Shown: in pieces, positions 16,423-39,110 of the stretch | Position numbering within the stretch: position 1 is the first letter of the stretch | Layout: every line of letters starts with the position of its first letter | DNA from: Desulfosporosinus acididurans | GTDB lineage: Bacteria > Bacillota > Desulfitobacteriia > Desulfitobacteriales > Desulfitobacteriaceae | Direction of reading: 5' to 3' | Assembly: GCF_001029285.1 (NCBI RefSeq) | Contig: NZ_LDZY01000011.1 | Span: 62,001-126,000 of the forward strand | DNA: 64,000 bases | Notes under the pieces: model-generated | Databases searched by the model: none | Seen by the model: only the letters and a program-made list of their open reading frames with translations | Told to the model about the DNA's origin: nothing | Program-made: the position numbers and the translations under genes

Positions 16423-16539
16423 AGTTCATCCAATGTCCTGTCGAATTAATTATGCGATAATTGTTAAGATAAATCGACCCGCATCTCGAAGAAAGTGACC
16501 GTTCCGGAAAGCAGATGCGCCCTGCTATATGTGAACCGG

Positions 16540-16568
16540 TTGCATAGTTTACAATCTATGGATATAAT
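16540..16568 (+). promoter_or_regulatory. Promoter of the antisense antitoxin RNA
   Basis: TTGCAT at 16540 and TATAAT at 16563 with a 17-nt spacer. Transcription would start near 16575 on the plus strand and run toward the 3' end of the minus-strand toxin gene. The same promoter arrangement, with the same spacer length, recurs at 38948-38976. Confidence 0.65.
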
Positions 16569-16573
16569 ATTAA

Positions 16574-16691
16574 ATAAGGACTGACGTGTTGTGAGCACGC
16601 CAGCCCGGCAGATTGTCTAACCAAACGGTTGGCCCGAATTAAAGGTTATAAGAAATAACCGCCATCCTGGACCGGGGCGGTTATTTCTTCT
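16574..16691 (+). ncRNA. Antisense RNA antitoxin (RatA-like) of a type I toxin pair
   Basis: From the TTGCAT/TATAAT promoter the RNA would run about 115 nt to an intrinsic terminator at 16652-16691, whose 11-bp stem joins AAATAACCGCC to GGCGGTTATTT and is followed by a pyrimidine-rich tail. The terminator region overlaps the end of the convergent toxin reading frame. That tail-to-tail overlap is the arrangement of TxpA/RatA and BsrG-type systems. Other short stems lie in between (GACGTG with GCACGC, AACC with GGTT). The function is inferred from the layout. Confidence 0.55.
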
Positions 16692-16758
16692 TCATGATCA
16701 TAACAACGAGTGTAGCAAATGCAATCATTAAATACATCGCCTCAACCATTGAGATCAT
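16681..16758 (-). CDS. Putative holin-like toxin (Hol-Tox family) of a type I toxin-antitoxin pair
   Basis: A 25-aa hydrophobic peptide starting MISMVEAMYLMIAFATLVV and ending in three lysines. It matches the pattern of the holin-like toxin family (short EAL/EAM-YLMIAFATLV core, basic end). ATG 16758 follows a very strong GGGGGTGG. An extended -10 (TGCTATAAT) lies on the minus strand near 16811-16820. Such peptides insert in the membrane and are silenced by a convergent antisense RNA, which is also present here. It is too short for ordinary gene callers. Confidence 0.7.
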   Translation of the reverse strand: MISMVEAMYLMIAFATLVVMIMKKK

Positions 16759-16867
16759 CCCTACCACCCCCTTTCGAAAAGGGTGTGGCCAACCGTCCCT
16801 CGACAACCTGTTGCAATTATTATAGCATAATCTTCCAGACAAATGATGAATCTTATCCCTGATTATT

Positions 16868-16916
16868 CCAGGGTTCAGGCTGCCTCATATACCGAGGCAG
16901 CCTGATTTGTTTTCAC
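16868..16916 (+). terminator. Double hairpin with U-rich end next to the toxin locus
   Basis: CCCTG/CAGGG followed by a longer stem AGGCTGCCTC/GAGGCAGCCT and ATTTGTTTT. The same two stems recur at 39048-39106. There the long stem has a compensatory T-A to C-G change and the small loop has changed, so the structure appears to be conserved as RNA. Confidence 0.6.
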
Positions 16917-18727: not shown

Positions 18728-20731
18728 TTATACAGACGTCCCCCAGCTGACGATCCGATAATACACTTTGGCCGTCAGCCCGTAGACAAGGGCATAAAAC
18801 AGGGCAAAGACCAAGATGGTACCTACTAAGCACCAGGCGAACAAACCCACATTAGTGAGATTCAGTACGGCCAGCAATTTAGTTATGATAGGAAAAGCGA
18901 AGGCAATATGGATCCCAGCGGTGACCAAGGGCAGGAAAAATACGGTCAGGACCTGACTGCGGATGGAGCCTTTTACCTCTTCACGGCTCATACCCACTTT
19001 CTGCATGATTTCAAAGCGGGCTTTATCATCATACCCTTCGGAGACCTGCTTGTAATAGATGATCAGTACCGTGGCCATAATGAACAGCGCCCCCAGGAAA
19101 ATGCCCAGGAAGAATAAGCCTCCATAAACGGCGAAAAACGATTCCTTGGCCGCCACCGGGGATTCAATGCTGCTGCCGGGATAATCACTGCCCACGGCAG
19201 TGCGGATGTCCTGGTAAACAGCCGAGATGTCAGCCTCACCGGCGTCCAGATCAAAGCCCAGATAATAGTTATAACCTGAGGACTCATTCCTATTTTCTTT
19301 AGCAAGAGTCGCCTCCATGGTTTTGATCACATCCATATCTTTGACCACGATATAATAGCTGCCCGAGATGGATGACCTCTCCAGGCTCTTTTCAAAAAAC
19401 GAGTCCAGCCTTTCCTTGACAGTAAATGTCCGGTTTAACACCGTCAAGGTATCGTTTTCATACTTGCTGGAACCGGAATAAATCAGAATCTCTTGATCTC
19501 CCAAGCTGACTGTTTTATGGGTCAGTCGGTTATAATCCTCCAGGGGAATCAGATAGTATTCCCTGAGCGAAGATGTGGCGTTGGATATGGATATTTTGCT
19601 CTTAGCTGTGATCACCGTGCCGCCCTCTTGATTGCCGGGAAAGAACAGATACCTGTAATCCAGCCTATCCTGCACCACCAGCCGGTGCTTTGCCAATACT
19701 TTGTGAACTGACCTCTGCAGGCCCTCGACAGATTGTTGAGTAGATATGGGAGCGGAGATCATGATAGTCTGGGGGTACCGGGTGCGCAGCACGTCCTCCA
19801 TCCCAACGTACAGGGACACAGTGGTAGAGACCATCACCAGCACAGCAGTGGCCATAATGCAGATATTGGCCAGCCCCACGGCGTTTTGTTTCATTCGGTA
19901 CATCATCCCCGCTACGGCGGTGAAATGCCGGGTCTGATAATAATACCTTTTGTTCCGGCGCAGCAGTTTAAGCACTGCGATGCTGCCGGCGGTAAACAGA
20001 CAATAGGTGCCCACCATCACCAGGAGGACGGCATAGAAAAATTGGCTCAGGGCAGTTAAGGGAGACTGGGTGGTGAGGGAGATATAATACCCTGCGCCCA
20101 GGCTCAAGGTTCCGATCACCACCAAAGGCCATTTGGTTTTTGGCTCCTTCTCCCCGGTCTGACCTCCCTGGAGGAGTTCAACAGGCTTAGCCAGATGGAT
20201 TTGACGCAAGGTATTGAGGAGAGTCAAGAGGAAAATTACGGCGAACAGGACCAAGGCAGCCGCCAGAGCGGGGCCGGAGACGTTAAAGCCCAGGGGTACC
20301 TCAAAGTTGAGGATTTTCAGCAGGACCATGAAAATCAGCTTAGAGAGAAGTATCCCGCCCAGCAGGCCTGCCCCCAGGCTGATCACCGCCACATACAGAG
20401 TTTCAAACCCCAATACTCTGGCGATATGCTTCTTCTCCATGCCCAGGATATTAAAGAGGCCGAATTCCTTTTTGCGCCGTTTAATCAGAAAACTGTGGGT
20501 ATAGAAGAGAAAAATCACTGCGAAAATAGCAATCACATAGGAGCCCAGATTAAGAATGGCTTGCACCTGAAAACCGCCGGACATTTTTCCCAAGCCCTTG
20601 TTCTCAGCCAGAAAAACCATAATGTAATACATCATCACCGTGCCTATGCAGGTCAGGATGTAGGGCAGGTAGGTTTGAGCATTCTTTTTCAGATTGGTGG
20701 CGGCCAGCTTGGCATAAAAGAATCTACTCAT
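18728..20731 (-). CDS. Bce-like ABC transporter permease (FtsX domains)
   Basis: A 667-aa integral membrane protein. The ATG at 20731 ([17 protein letters not shown]) overlaps the ATPase gene by 8 nt. It has the BceB/YtrF/VraG layout: TM1, a FtsX domain with TM2-4 after FLIKRRKKEFGLFNILGMEKK, further segments, a large extracytoplasmic domain (about residues 310-530), and a C-terminal FtsX domain with YDDKARFEIMQKVGMSREEV. In this family the permease senses antimicrobial peptides and signals to a partner histidine kinase. A cut-down copy of residues ~495-549 and the last codons occurs at 37.8 kb. Confidence 0.88.
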   Translation of the reverse strand: MSRFFYAKLAATNLKKNAQTYLPYILTCIGTVMMYYIMVFLAENKGLGKMSGGFQVQAILNLGSYVIAIFAVIFLFYTHSFLIKRRKKEFGLFNILGMEKKHIARVLGFETLYVAVISLGAGLLGGILLSKLIFMVLLKILNFEVPLGFNVSGPALAAALVLFAVIFLLTLLNTLRQIHLAKPVELLQGGQTGEKEPKTKWPLVVIGTLSLGAGYYISLTTQSPLTALSQFFYAVLLVMVGTYCLFTAGSIAVLKLLRRNKRYYYQTRHFTAVAGMMYRMKQNAVGLANICIMATAVLVMVSTTVSLYVGMEDVLRTRYPQTIMISAPISTQQSVEGLQRSVHKVLAKHRLVVQDRLDYRYLFFPGNQEGGTVITAKSKISISNATSSLREYYLIPLEDYNRLTHKTVSLGDQEILIYSGSSKYENDTLTVLNRTFTVKERLDSFFEKSLERSSISGSYYIVVKDMDVIKTMEATLAKENRNESSGYNYYLGFDLDAGEADISAVYQDIRTAVGSDYPGSSIESPVAAKESFFAVYGGLFFLGIFLGALFIMATVLIIYYKQVSEGYDDKARFEIMQKVGMSREEVKGSIRSQVLTVFFLPLVTAGIHIAFAFPIITKLLAVLNLTNVGLFAWCLVGTILVFALFYALVYGLTAKVYYRIVSWGTSV

Positions 20732-21491
20732 GGCGCCCACCACCTGTGGCCATGGTGGTCAGGGTATCGGAGATCTTCTGGTACATAACTTCATCCGACA
20801 TGCCGGCTTTATAAAGCTGGTGGAAGACCTCCCCATCCTTAATAAACAGTACCCGTTGGGCATGACTGGCCGCTTTCACGCTGTGGGTCACCATTAACAG
20901 GGTCTGCCCCTCCTGATTAATTTCATTAAACAGGCGGAGCAAACCCTCAGCGGCCTGAGAGTCCAGAGAGCCGGTGGGTTCGTCCGCCAGAATCAGCTGG
21001 GGTTTGGTAATCAGGGCGCGAGCTACGGCACAGCGCTGCTTCTGCCCTCCCGACACTTCATAAGGATATTTGGCCAGGATATCGCCGATCCCCAGCTTGC
21101 AGGCAATGGGCTCCAAACGCCGGGTCATCTCCTCATAAGACTTGCCGGAGAGCACCAGGGGCAGGAAAATATTATCCTGCAAGGAGAAGGTATCCAGCAG
21201 ATTAAAATCCTGAAATACAAAGCCGAGATTTTCCCGGCGGAAAGCGGAAATCTCCTTTTCTTTAATGGTACTGAGCCTTTTTCCCTTGAGCAGAACCTCA
21301 CCACTTATGGGTTTGTCCAGAGCGGCCAGAATATTGAGCAGGGTCGTTTTCCCTGACCCCGATTCACCCATAATCGCTGCATATTCACCCTGCTCCACGG
21401 AGAAGGACACATTAGCTAAGGCCTGAACATGACTGCCGCCAAAGCGGGTAGTATAGACTTTTTTAAGATTATTCACCTCTAAAATAGTCAT
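20724..21491 (-). CDS. Bce-like ABC transporter ATP-binding protein
   Basis: A 255-aa ATPase. Walker A is [12 protein letters not shown], the Q-loop lies in [15 protein letters not shown], the signature is [15 protein letters not shown], and Walker B is [13 protein letters not shown]. The H-loop lies in [14 protein letters not shown]. The start ATG 21491 follows AAAGGAGG. It belongs to the MacB/LolD-type family and pairs with the overlapping permease gene. In Bce-type modules the pair confers peptide-antibiotic resistance. The substrate here is not known. Confidence 0.92.
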
Positions 21492-21609
21492 CAAGAAGAA
21501 CCTCCTTTGCTGAGTAGGTTCAGTATAACAAAACAGGAAAATGCCCTGCCATAACTTTGGCTTACATTTTCCAGTTTAAGCTTACCCTCTGGTAAGGTAG
21601 ATCATAATT

Positions 21610-23316
21610 TCACTCCATCACTGTATCCACCGTATCCAAGCCGATTTTTACTTTCGTGCCCTTGCCCGGCTCCCCTTCGATCACAATGGTATGGGACAGC
21701 TTGGTGAGAATCCTCTTGCACAGGTAGAGGCCGATCCCTGTGGACTTTTTATCCCTTCGGCCGTTATAACCGGTAAAGCCTTTTTCAAAGACGCGGGGCA
21801 GATCTTCTCCGGCAATACCTATCCCTGTATCGGCGATTACCAGGGTTTTGGCACCGGCTCTTTCCATATAAATGGAGATCTTTCCTTCCGGGGTGTACTT
21901 CAAAGCATTGGACAAGATCTGCTCAATGACAAACACCAGCCATTTTTCATCCGTCAGCACGTCACAGTTCAGTTCGGAAAAATCCAGGCTGATCTTCTTG
22001 CGGATAAACATCTTGGCATATTTGCGCACCGCCTGCCGGACGATATCGTCCAGAGCATAGCGTTTCAGCACAAAATCGGAAGAAGGGCTCTCCAACCGCA
22101 GGTATTGGAGCACCATTTCCACATACTGTTCAATTTTGAACAACTCCATGGTCAGCTCCCTGTTCTGTTCCATACTCTGAGCAGTACTCCCGTCATCCCC
22201 TGAGGGGAGGGACTGGAGAAGGAGGCCCATGGCGGCGATAGGTGTTTTGATCTGATGGGCCCACAGCGTATAATAATCCACCAAATCGCTTCGCTCATTA
22301 TCGGCCTGGGAAACCAGCCTGATCTTATCTCGGTAGAGGACGGCGATGAGCTCCTGATACTCCTCTTCCAATAATCCTTTAGCTTCAGGAAGCCCTTCCA
22401 GGCTGAAGATGATCTGTTGCTGCAAATCCCGGAGCACTCTGCAACGTTGCCGCAGCCGGTATCCCGGATGGTAACCGTCAGTTCCCTTCCCCGCACGAGG
22501 CTGCAACTGCTTGACACAGTGCTGAAGCAACGCAGCCAAATCAACCTCCTCCAGGCAAAGAGTGGCCCTTCCTGACTCCAGCCGGGAAAAGTCGAGCAGA
22601 TCATCCACCAGCAGCGCCAGCCGATCGCTTTCCCCGCTGATGATTTGCAGCCCCTCACGCAACTCGTCTTGGTTATGGTCATCTCCGTGCAGCAAGGTGA
22701 GTGCCCAGCCTTTGATCGAAGTCAGCGGGGTCTTCAGATCATGGGATACGGAAGCGATAAACTCACTCTTGAGTCGCTCCTGGTGCAGAATCTCCGCCGC
22801 CAAGAAATTCAAGGTCTCCGCCAAATTACCGAGTTCATAACCTGATTTTACCGGCGCTCTACTATTGAACATGCCTTGGCTCATTTCACCAGCCACCTGG
22901 GTGATCTCCAATACCGGTCCGGTAATGCTGGAGGCCAGCCATAAACCTGTCGCCGCGGCCAGACCTGTCACCAGCAGCCCGAGGCCGAAGAGCAGCCAGG
23001 TCAGCCGGCTGACCGCCTGATGCACGCCGGTCAAGGAGGTGACCATCCTCAGGGCTCCTTTGCGCCCGTCTAAGTCCTGCAGGGGGAAAGCTACCGCCAA
23101 GATGGTCTCCCCTTGGCGGGTAACACCCTGCCACCGACCCGATCTGCCTGCCAAGGCTTCATTGACATCCGGGCTATCCACCGGCTGGCGGATCATCATC
23201 ATAGAATCGGCCAGAATCGCTCTTTCAGGAGAGATTACTTGCACCTGGGCACTGGTGTTGGCTGCCAAGCTCCGCATCAAGCTGTCCGCCGACCCGTTCA
23301 GACCTTTGCCTGACAA
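21610..23316 (-). CDS. Mosaic sensor histidine kinase (two kinases fused by deletion)
   Basis: A single open frame (568 aa from a TTG with no convincing site) holds parts of two kinases. Residues 1-275 are the end of an extracytoplasmic sensor, one TM (about 105-128), a HAMP domain and a DHp helix with H192 (SVSHDLKTPLTS). Residues ~300-568 are the cytoplasmic half of a BceS-type kinase, with a second phosphoacceptor H354 (LWAHQIKTPIAAM) and a complete ATPase domain (NALKYTPEG, DTGIGI, STGIGLYLC). Between them an ATP-domain scrap (LTVTIRDTGCG) is readable only in another frame near 22445-22485. The first TM of kinase 1, the ATPase domain of kinase 1, and the BceS N-terminus and response regulator are missing. 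It may be expressed but is probably not a normal sensor. Confidence 0.75.
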   Translation of the reverse strand: MSGKGLNGSADSLMRSLAANTSAQVQVISPERAILADSMMMIRQPVDSPDVNEALAGRSGRWQGVTRQGETILAVAFPLQDLDGRKGALRMVTSLTGVHQAVSRLTWLLFGLGLLVTGLAAATGLWLASSITGPVLEITQVAGEMSQGMFNSRAPVKSGYELGNLAETLNFLAAEILHQERLKSEFIASVSHDLKTPLTSIKGWALTLLHGDDHNQDELREGLQIISGESDRLALLVDDLLDFSRLESGRATLCLEEVDLAALLQHCVKQLQPRAGKGTDGYHPGYRLRQRCRVLRDLQQQIIFSLEGLPEAKGLLEEEYQELIAVLYRDKIRLVSQADNERSDLVDYYTLWAHQIKTPIAAMGLLLQSLPSGDDGSTAQSMEQNRELTMELFKIEQYVEMVLQYLRLESPSSDFVLKRYALDDIVRQAVRKYAKMFIRKKISLDFSELNCDVLTDEKWLVFVIEQILSNALKYTPEGKISIYMERAGAKTLVIADTGIGIAGEDLPRVFEKGFTGYNGRRDKKSTGIGLYLCKRILTKLSHTIVIEGEPGKGTKVKIGLDTVDTVME

Positions 23317-23370
23317 GTAGCTGTGGTAGAAGTTGGCTGCAGACTCATCCTGTTTGGTAAATGAATAAAT

Positions 23371-23407
23371 AAAAATCCGGAGCCTACTATCGCTCCGAAT
23401 TGCTTTT
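23371..23407. terminator. Hairpin abutting the truncated kinase
   Basis: AATCCGGAGC and GCTCCGAATT around an 8-nt loop, with A-rich and T-rich flanks, so it could terminate in either direction. A homologous hairpin with compensatory changes (AATCCAGAGC/GCTCTGGATT) and an identical loop lies at 38041-38068, next to the Bce permease remnant. Confidence 0.6.
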
Positions 23408-23647
23408 CATCGTTCTTAATTTCCCGCAAAGCCGTTTTAATCCTTTCTCCTTCCAATGATGGCCCGCAATTTTTAGGGCTTATTTTTGCACTCTTACCCT
23501 CAGGAAGTATCTTACCTGAGAGCCGCAGCAGTATTAGTCCTCGTCAAATATCTCTACAACCTCTGTCCAACGTAATTCTAAACGCAGCTTAAAACTCGCC
23601 CGAAAACTCGGAAATCCGGGTTTGAGCAAGGGAGAGAATCTAACAAA

Positions 23648-23697
23648 CAGGCTTGTACCAAGAATCTTACGCGCGTAAGATTCTTGGTACAAGCCTG
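23648..23697. repeat. 50-bp perfect palindrome
   Basis: Two 25-nt arms (CAGGCTTGTACCAAGAATCT.. and its exact reverse complement) meet at GC|GC with no loop. It lies just downstream of the Uma2 gene. A cruciform or very stable hairpin is possible. There is no poly-T end, so it is not a standard terminator. Confidence 0.85.
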
Positions 23698-23712
23698 AGA
23701 AAGAGAAGGATC

Positions 23713-24288
23713 TCACTGTTGTTGAGAAAACACCAAATTCAAATCAATTTCGAGGTCCGGAAAAATTGATATTCTAGCTTTATCTTCGTCCGTATACATT
23801 TCTGGTCTTCCATATCTGGCGTTTGATTGCAATAAAAATATGCTTACAATCTTCTGGTCAGGTTCTACTACCCAGTATTCTTTAACACCTGCTTTTTCAT
23901 ACTTGTTAAATTTAAATACTTTGTCGTTTTTACCGGTTGACGGAGATAATATTTCTATTATTAAGTCAGGAGTTCCTTTACAACCTCTTTCGTCAAGCTT
24001 AGAGCTATCACAGATAATGGTAATATCCGGTTCAACGACATTTTTAACATCATTATCATTATCTTCAACATCAAGTCTCACGCAGAACGGGGCATGATAA
24101 ACTCTACAATTCTTACCTTGCAGATAGTTTGCAAACTGTCTGTACAGTTCGCCGGAAATTTCTTGATGAATTCTTGAAGGTGCAGATTGCATATAAGCTA
24201 TGCCGTCAAGAACCTCCCATCTTTCCTCCCCGTTCCAAGTCAAGTAATCAGCGTATGAATAATTTCGCCCTTGTCGTGGCAATAGCAT
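23713..24288 (-). CDS. Uma2-family (DUF820) endonuclease-like protein, copy 1
   Basis: A 191-aa protein. I prefer ATG 24288 (AAGGAG about 10 nt upstream) over the in-frame GTG at 24297. The PD-(D/E)XK-type core reads VVEPDITIICD, GTPDLIIEILSPST and then FNKYEKAGVKEYWVVEP, with E/D/E..K placed as in Uma2 nucleases. The family is widespread and multi-copy in cyanobacteria and some clostridia, and its role is uncertain. Two paralogues lie at 38.3 and 44.0 kb. It stands alone with a 50-bp palindrome at its 3' end. Confidence 0.88.
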   Translation of the reverse strand: MLLPRQGRNYSYADYLTWNGEERWEVLDGIAYMQSAPSRIHQEISGELYRQFANYLQGKNCRVYHAPFCVRLDVEDNDNDVKNVVEPDITIICDSSKLDERGCKGTPDLIIEILSPSTGKNDKVFKFNKYEKAGVKEYWVVEPDQKIVSIFLLQSNARYGRPEMYTDEDKARISIFPDLEIDLNLVFSQQQ

Positions 24289-24451
24289 ATTATACACGCT
24301 CCTTATATATCTATCTGATTATACCATTTTCTGCCGATTAGGAATAGTTTAAACTTGAGGTAAAACTGCCATTCTTTTTAATGAATCAGTCAGGTTATTA
24401 TCCGGCAGATATGCATGAACCGGCTGCAATTTATATTTACCTAATAATTAA

Positions 24452-24474
24452 GAGCACCGAACCATTCGGTGCTC
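24452..24474. terminator. Short perfect hairpin
   Basis: GAGCACCGAA and TTCGGTGCTC pair perfectly over a 3-nt loop. On the minus strand it is followed by TTAATTATT. No gene clearly reads into it. Confidence 0.4.
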
Positions 24475-24637
24475 GTTCCGAATGGAGATCGCTTTGGCAC
24501 CAGCTGAAACCGCAATGGCACCTCCGATTGCCGGTTATAGATGTCTGTTCGTTAATTATCATAAGAATGCGTTAATCTCTGATACGTCGATGAGCAGCAA
24601 GCTCCAGGTACTTCTTTATTTTTCGAGCCTACAATGT

Positions 24638-37376: not shown

Positions 37377-37754
37377 TTTCTTCTTCCTTTCTGTTACACA
37401 GTTATGCATGAAATATTGTATTTCTCTGCAACAATACAGGGTGCGATAAAGATAATATCATTAACCTATTGTATCTGGTTTCTATTAAAACAATTTTCTT
37501 AAATTGTAAATCCTGGTCAAGTACTTCGTGAAATCACTGATAGGTTTTGCCAATATGCTGGATTTATTCCCCATGTTATGTTTAAAAACAACGATCATAC
37601 AAATGGTCTTATTTGAGCAAGTCGGGTATTTTACATTCGACACCTGAAACTCACTTCGTTTTTGATCTGTATATAAAAACAAAGACATCACGATTTGCTG
37701 TCCTGATGCCTTTGTTTATTGAACTTGAAATTGTAATTTTTGAGGTTATATTTC
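37377..37754. other. Intergenic region upstream of the RND gene
   Basis: Contains a 68-codon minus-strand frame (37485-37691) with no ribosome binding site and no recognisable family. I see no supported gene. The promoter of the RND gene should lie here. Confidence 0.3.
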
Positions 37755-37944
37755 TTCAACCGTTTATACAGACGTCCCCCCGAAAAATGCCCAAGAAGAA
37801 TAAACCTCCATAAACGGCGAAAAAGGATTCTTTGGCTGCCACCGGGGATTCGATTTTGCTGCTGGGAAAATCGCTGCCCACAGCAGTCTGTATGTCCTTG
37901 GTAAACAGCTGAGATGTCAGCCTCGCCGGCGTCCAGATTAAAGC
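37755..37944 (-). pseudogene. Deletion-shortened remnant of a Bce-type permease gene
   Basis: Two collinear pieces of the permease gene at 18.7-20.7 kb are joined: the last seven codons plus downstream bases (37755-37780 versus 18718-18743), and an internal stretch for residues ~495-549 (37782-37944 versus 19096-19258, roughly 87% identical by eye). About 350 bp between them are missing. A hairpin homologous to the one upstream of the kinase lies ~95 bp further on, so the remnant preserves both ends of a lost Bce locus. Confidence 0.85.
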
Positions 37945-38035
37945 GTTGCCAAAAATTCATCCTCTTCCTCCATTCATGGTTCTCAACGCCTACTATTTCC
38001 ACCACTATCCTCTATTTCATGCTTACGGCAATAAA

Positions 38036-38074
38036 ATAAAAATCCAGAGCCTACTATCGCTCTGGATTGCTTTT
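38036..38074. terminator. Hairpin paired with the Bce remnant
   Basis: AATCCAGAGC and GCTCTGGATT with loop CTACTATC, A-rich on one side and GCTTTTAA on the other. It is homologous to the hairpin at 23374-23401, with compensatory base changes. Confidence 0.6.
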
Positions 38075-38267
38075 AATCGTTACTACTATCATTATAAGTC
38101 AGATAATTGAAAAAGGACAGTATCATACGAATGCGTAACGGTTTAATACTTATGATCAGAGGGACGGCATCTTTTAAGTATTATTGGAATATTACCCCTG
38201 CCTAAATGAATCAAGCATCCTCTTCCCAACCGGCAGAGGGTGCTTGCGTTCATAATGCCTTTGCTCT

Positions 38268-38849: not shown

Positions 38850-38947
38850 TATGAACACCCCCTCATTTGCCAAAACTTATACATTTACCATATTATAACA
38901 CAAACTGTGCCAAATATAGCGATACCAATAGTTTGTGTGTGACCCGG

Positions 38948-39110
38948 TTGCATATTTTACAGTCCGTGAGTATAATATTAGCTAACCGTCCCACGACAAC
39001 CTGTTAGAACTATTATGGCATAATCTTCCAGGCAATATGATGAAACTTATCCCTGACTGCTCCAGGGATCAGGCCGCCTCATAACACAAGGCGGCCTGAT
39101 TTGTTTCATT
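38948..39110 (+). ncRNA. Orphan copy of the type I antitoxin promoter and hairpins, toxin deleted
   Basis: The promoter (TTGCAT, 17 nt, TATAAT) and its flank match 16540-16570. A few bases on, the sequence jumps to the part that follows the toxin in the first copy (16790 onward). The toxin frame and antitoxin terminator are gone, and the toxin -10 element is damaged (CATAAT). The RNA would run about 125 nt through CCCTG/CAGGG and a 9-bp G+C-rich stem ending in ATTTGTTT. It may be a free small RNA or just a scar. Confidence 0.55.

Follow-up and report, generated by a model that had tools for sequence, protein, structure and literature searches.

In the available part of the cryo-EM study of BceAB-S, the transmembrane (TM) helices of the kinase form a four-helix bundle that contacts the transporter and is followed by a HAMP domain (PMC10314905). 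The cytosolic part of Bacillus subtilis BceS autophosphorylates on its own, according to the accessible portion of PMC4314665. Tandem-transmitter proteins made by two-component gene fusion (T,TR to TT; TRTTRT) are described for myxobacteria in the available text of PMC4603909. We analysed a window of 64,000 nucleotides from Desulfosporosinus acididurans in which a piece of one sensor kinase is fused in frame to the cytosolic part of a BceS-like kinase. A published description of this fusion was not found in the literature searched, which is no proof that none exists.

A preliminary description of the window had reported one uninterrupted frame with a HAMP-HisKA front (H192) and a BceS-type DHp plus ATPase rear (H354). 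The ORF, both histidines and the ATPase boxes were all found where it had placed them. A single ORF of 568 codons without a stop runs on the minus strand from 23316 to 21610, with Pfam matches to HAMP (126-176), HisKA (best stretch 183-249, plus a second HisKA stretch) and HATPase_c (456-561). Its two HisKA domains carry their phosphoacceptor histidines in HDLKTP (H192, front) and HQIKTP (H354, rear), the rear half alone matching Pfam HisKA weakly (20.7 bits, under the 26.9 cut-off). The ATPase boxes are confined to the rear (N box at 467, G1 at 496, G2 at 525). The open frame extends 30 codons 5' of TTG 23316 with no ATG, GTG or TTG in that extension, giving 598 codons in total without a stop. 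The features of the locus are as follows.

18728..20743, minus strand: FtsX-type permease, BceB-like, intact, 671 aa against 674-codon congener frames (ORF, Pfam, congener comparison)
20724..21494, minus strand: ABC transporter ATPase, BceA-like, intact, 256 aa (ORF, Pfam, congener comparison)
21610..22449, minus strand: rear, a BceS-like kinase reduced to its cytosolic part, which is complete and comprises linker, DHp (H354) and ATPase (congener homology)
about 22484-22450, minus strand: out-of-frame remnant of the G1 box in the ATPase domain of the front kinase, reading ELTVTIRDTGCG in the +1 frame (three-frame translation)
22485..23366, minus strand: front fragment, a truncated Cache/HAMP/HisKA sensor kinase with H192 (homology, Pfam HAMP and HisKA, hydropathy)
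23044..23060, minus strand: candidate internal start ATG 23046 with AAGGAG 8 nt upstream (SD/start scan)
23374..23401, minus strand: intrinsic terminator just upstream of the fusion (10 pairs and a T-tail; MFE -16.4 kcal/mol, z -3.9)

Residues 286-568 are 90-95% identical in amino acid sequence to 349/350-aa kinases in 8 of the 23 congeners searched (G003, G006, G007, G008, G011, G015, G017 and G021; one genome per species), which we take to be BceS-like from their gene order and catalytic part. In all eight the kinase is a separate gene with two N-terminal TM helices and a 229-231-codon regulator frame directly upstream, and a BceA-like ATPase is present in the fetched stretch of five. In most comparisons the DNA homology of the rear sets in at 22449 (22440 for G008), just after TM2 of the intact gene, so that the BceS TM helices are absent and the cytosolic part is whole. 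The TM region of the G008 kinase has no match anywhere in the window. Like BceS of B. subtilis and the same-genus relatives, the rear combines a cytosolic linker with DHp and ATPase, and BceAB-like ABC genes come after it, but the fusion lacks both TM helices and the regulator and has a foreign kinase piece in front. Because BceS TM helices contact the transporter in the available part of PMC10314905, the window protein is without the part that meets the transporter.

The front comes from another kinase family, in agreement with the proposal of two different parents. The closest relative in a search of 82 genomes from the class is the 475-aa G075 kinase (50% identity, query residues 43-335 of 459), and the second-best is a G228 kinase (47%) among 398 genomes of the phylum; within the genus, relatives are only 40-43% identical and occur in most but not all genomes. 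The full G075 kinase carries HAMP, HisKA and HATPase_c plus sub-threshold Cache matches, and the gene neighbourhood places a response regulator gene directly upstream of it. The front shares with G075/G228-type kinases a Cache remnant, TM2, HAMP and HisKA, whereas it lacks the first ~42 residues including TM1, the start codon, everything past the first part of the ATPase domain, and the regulator that is adjacent in G075. Hydropathy shows one remaining TM helix at about aa 104-126. The deletion events of the preliminary description are thus borne out by the scars, but it had missed the loss of TM1 and the start. In an alignment of 18 distinct family sequences, the front keeps 84 (74%) of the 113 columns whose residue is shared by 92% or more of the other members, and G075 and G228 keep 105/160 and 107/161 columns of their own sets. 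On this alignment the fragment looks no worse kept than other diverged family members. The GC content of the front (56-59%) exceeds that of the transporter genes (44-55%); this is compatible with a foreign origin but no proof of it. A close donor (relative, plasmid or other genome) was sought and rejected, the best identities being the 50% in the class and 47% in the phylum given above, with all plasmid matches below 60%. A pattern-based genome scan for the front gave one distant match; it relies on exact peptides, and relatives can escape it.

The out-of-frame ATPase scrap proposed earlier was recovered by three-frame translation as ~35 bp between the two halves, and by eye in an alignment it resembles the G1 region of L045/L046/L031. 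Two frame changes around this scrap cancel. When the front was cut in simulation at 60 successive points before the junction, an open in-frame outcome was obtained in 20/60, so the open frame needs no special cause; chance, at odds of about one in three, would account for it. Like the myxobacterial tandem transmitters described in the available text of PMC4603909, the joined genes place two transmitter pieces in a single frame, but here one of the transmitters is incomplete, the two kinases are unlike each other, and there is no receiver.

The 5' breakpoint falls in or just after the T-tract of the terminator, where the front fragment starts. Positions 23367-23563 share 90% identity with non-coding G008 sequence that lies ~2.7 kb 5' of the intact kinase. 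TTG 23316, the first possible start codon of the frame, has no Shine-Dalgarno (SD) sequence, and nothing supports it as a real start. Because the breakpoint lies in the terminator T-tract and this TTG lacks a Shine-Dalgarno sequence, a full-frame sensor is probably not made. A start at ATG 23046 would give a 478-aa single-TM HAMP-DHp-DHp-ATPase protein, and TTG 22539 has AGGAGGT 4 nt upstream. Of the 54 in-frame start codons, 3 follow an SD match of 6 nt or more; of the 39 out-of-frame ones, none does. Minus-strand promoter-like sites in 20500-24500 were found at 24081 and 21629 only, and none between the terminator and the rear, in a scan whose overall count is at chance level (6 sites against 4.8 in shuffles), so that it weighs little either way.

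The BceAB-type transporter genes adjoin the rear downstream, and both are intact as described before. No BceR-type regulator is present in the window, as had also been noted, though all eight congeners with the kinase have one. A close relative of the lost regulator is absent from the source genome, where the best match has 54% identity. This match, found on following the earlier suggestion to look for a BceR-type regulator elsewhere in the genome, is a Bce-like regulator on contig 9. Downstream of it are a kinase frame of 360 codons, which shares 40% identity with the rear, and genes for an ABC ATPase and a permease. Contig 9 therefore holds a second, complete Bce-like module, the only credible outlet found for a live fusion. 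The 21484-21605 stretch, directly 5' of the ATPase gene, shows about 92% conservation; its copies in G007, G011 and G006 lie 3' of the kinase with other DNA between, and it is possibly a mobile or shared promoter region.

Against the eight congeners the rear has dS of 0.21-0.35 and dN/dS of 0.07-0.16, compared with 0.12-0.21 for congener pairs. The rear of the window carries 8 private synonymous codons and no private non-synonymous codon, and the eight congeners combined have 42 and 15. By hand derivation the rear has about 645 non-synonymous and 191 synonymous sites, so that ~77% of changes would be non-synonymous if unconstrained. The same hand arithmetic gives a chance of about 1e-5 for 0/8 non-synonymous changes under no constraint, and limits an unconstrained period to no more than roughly one tenth of the branch leading to the window sequence. 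The absence of private amino acid changes in the rear means that either the fusion is very young or the kinase end is still selected, and the data fit both. Private synonymous and non-synonymous codons number 4 and 2 in the ABC ATPase and 34 and 8 in the permease; the transporter genes look constrained as well.

The fused ORF is real and, among the genomes searched, is confined to the source genome. It was found in 0 of 23 congeners, and none of 39 other genomes had, among the matches listed, one match covering both halves. A conserved fused family in other species, the finding that the preliminary description had named as speaking against its account, was thus not found in the genomes searched. 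We favour the reading that the fusion is a young gene wreck, a chance in-frame relic (probability about 0.6). Three lesions are present: the 5' truncation, the internal ATPase deletion with its out-of-frame scrap, and the loss of the regulator together with the BceS TM helices. The preliminary description had left a relic and a newly wired kinase side by side. Of these the relic is favoured because of the additional lesion that removed TM1 and the start, the breakpoint in the terminator, and the Bce-like regulator elsewhere that has its own kinase and transporter, whereas youth or use of the rear still fits the lack of private amino acid changes. The evidence does not support calling the fusion a functional two-phosphoacceptor histidine kinase. 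The intact regulator and kinase in 8/8 congeners with the kinase, the 0/23 occurrence of the fusion and the instability of the locus elsewhere also argue for a wreck; against it stand the fully conserved rear, the 598-codon frame without a stop and the good internal SD/ATG. Since 0/8 private changes are non-synonymous, the relic would have to be very young. As we infer the sequence of events, the ancestor would have been a Bce-like operon of response regulator, two-TM BceS-like kinase and ABC transporter, upstream of which sequence from a sensor kinase gene, either foreign or highly diverged, landed. Deletions would then have removed the regulator, the BceS TM helices, and both the 5' end of the foreign kinase and the greater part of its ATPase domain, and the two cancelling frame changes around the scrap would have left one frame open by chance. 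Given the terminator at the breakpoint and the lack there of a start codon with a ribosome site, little of the 568-codon product is probably made, and the transporter would run from its own promoter region. The make-up of the fusion, its losses, its two parents and the conservation of its rear are established by the sequence comparisons, and the order of events, the lack of expression and the youth are inferred. As a relic, the likelier case, the locus would be a clear example of a regulator deletion that leaves behind a kinase chimera in one frame, which annotation pipelines would label a functional sensor kinase.

An unlikely reading is that the fusion is a newly wired kinase that starts at ATG 23046, with the order TM-HAMP-DHp1-DHp2-ATPase. 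The borrowed TM/HAMP would re-anchor the BceS catalytic part, DHp1 would act as a dimer stalk or as a target of the rear ATPase, and the phosphate would go to the contig 9 paralogue of the lost regulator (54% identity). The purifying selection on the rear with its 0 private amino acid changes, the full set of catalytic motifs, the junction right after BceS TM2 that leaves the cytosolic part whole, the SD and ATG at 23046 and the paralogous regulator and kinase module in the genome are all consistent with it, as is the autophosphorylation of the isolated B. subtilis BceS cytosolic part in the accessible portion of PMC4314665. However, a terminator lies at the breakpoint, no promoter-like site was found, the TM pair that lies against the permease in Bce systems (available part of PMC10314905) is gone, the contig 9 regulator already has its own kinase, and both frame changes are typical of chance. 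A functional fusion would be a natural equivalent of the chimeric kinases built in the laboratory, dated to one lineage and with an intact paralogous pathway as its likely outlet, and would let the origin of new signalling connections be tested directly. Somewhat less probable again is a soluble rear kinase made from an internal start in the front remains and cross-talking with other regulators; the AGGAGGT 4 nt before TTG 22539 and the conservation of the rear fit such a product, but TTG is its start, the spacing is short, no promoter-like site was found, and it presumably could not sense through the transporter. We give still less credit to a kinase caught at birth, in which the orphaned catalytic domain of BceS gained a new anchor, a foreign TM-HAMP-DHp stalk, through a chance deletion and became a two-histidine kinase that now feeds the paralogous contig 9 regulator, though this would explain the 0 private amino acid changes in the catalytic half. 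The least probable explanation is a misjoining of two genes in assembly. The sequence is a 47-contig draft from a single genome, but the locus is interior to a 182-kb contig, three small separate scars are unlike one misjoin, and no other pieces of the parents were found in the genome, the best regulator being 54% identical and the next front-family kinase 43% and complete.

Other congeners also have this Bce-like locus in broken or partly duplicated form, with a kinase relic in G018 (L057), an extra kinase tail in G017 (L053) and an extra ATPase fragment in G003 (L047). No Rfam match was found in the window, and an RNA-element explanation was dropped. The non-coding repeats at 16519-16908 and 38936-39109, without an Rfam match, match, at about 86-96% identity, two copies that lie between the kinase and the transporter of G017 (L053). 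Positions 37635-38081 hold a scrambled second scrap of the island, in which a broken permease piece (37776-37944) lies beside a copy of the pre-fusion terminator region. A 46-bp perfect palindrome (MFE -40 kcal/mol) is located at 23650-23695. Allowing up to 3 mismatches, it occurs in 6 of 24 genomes searched, once in the source genome and in up to 17 places in G003; among the genomes searched, this repeat is seen solely in this genus.
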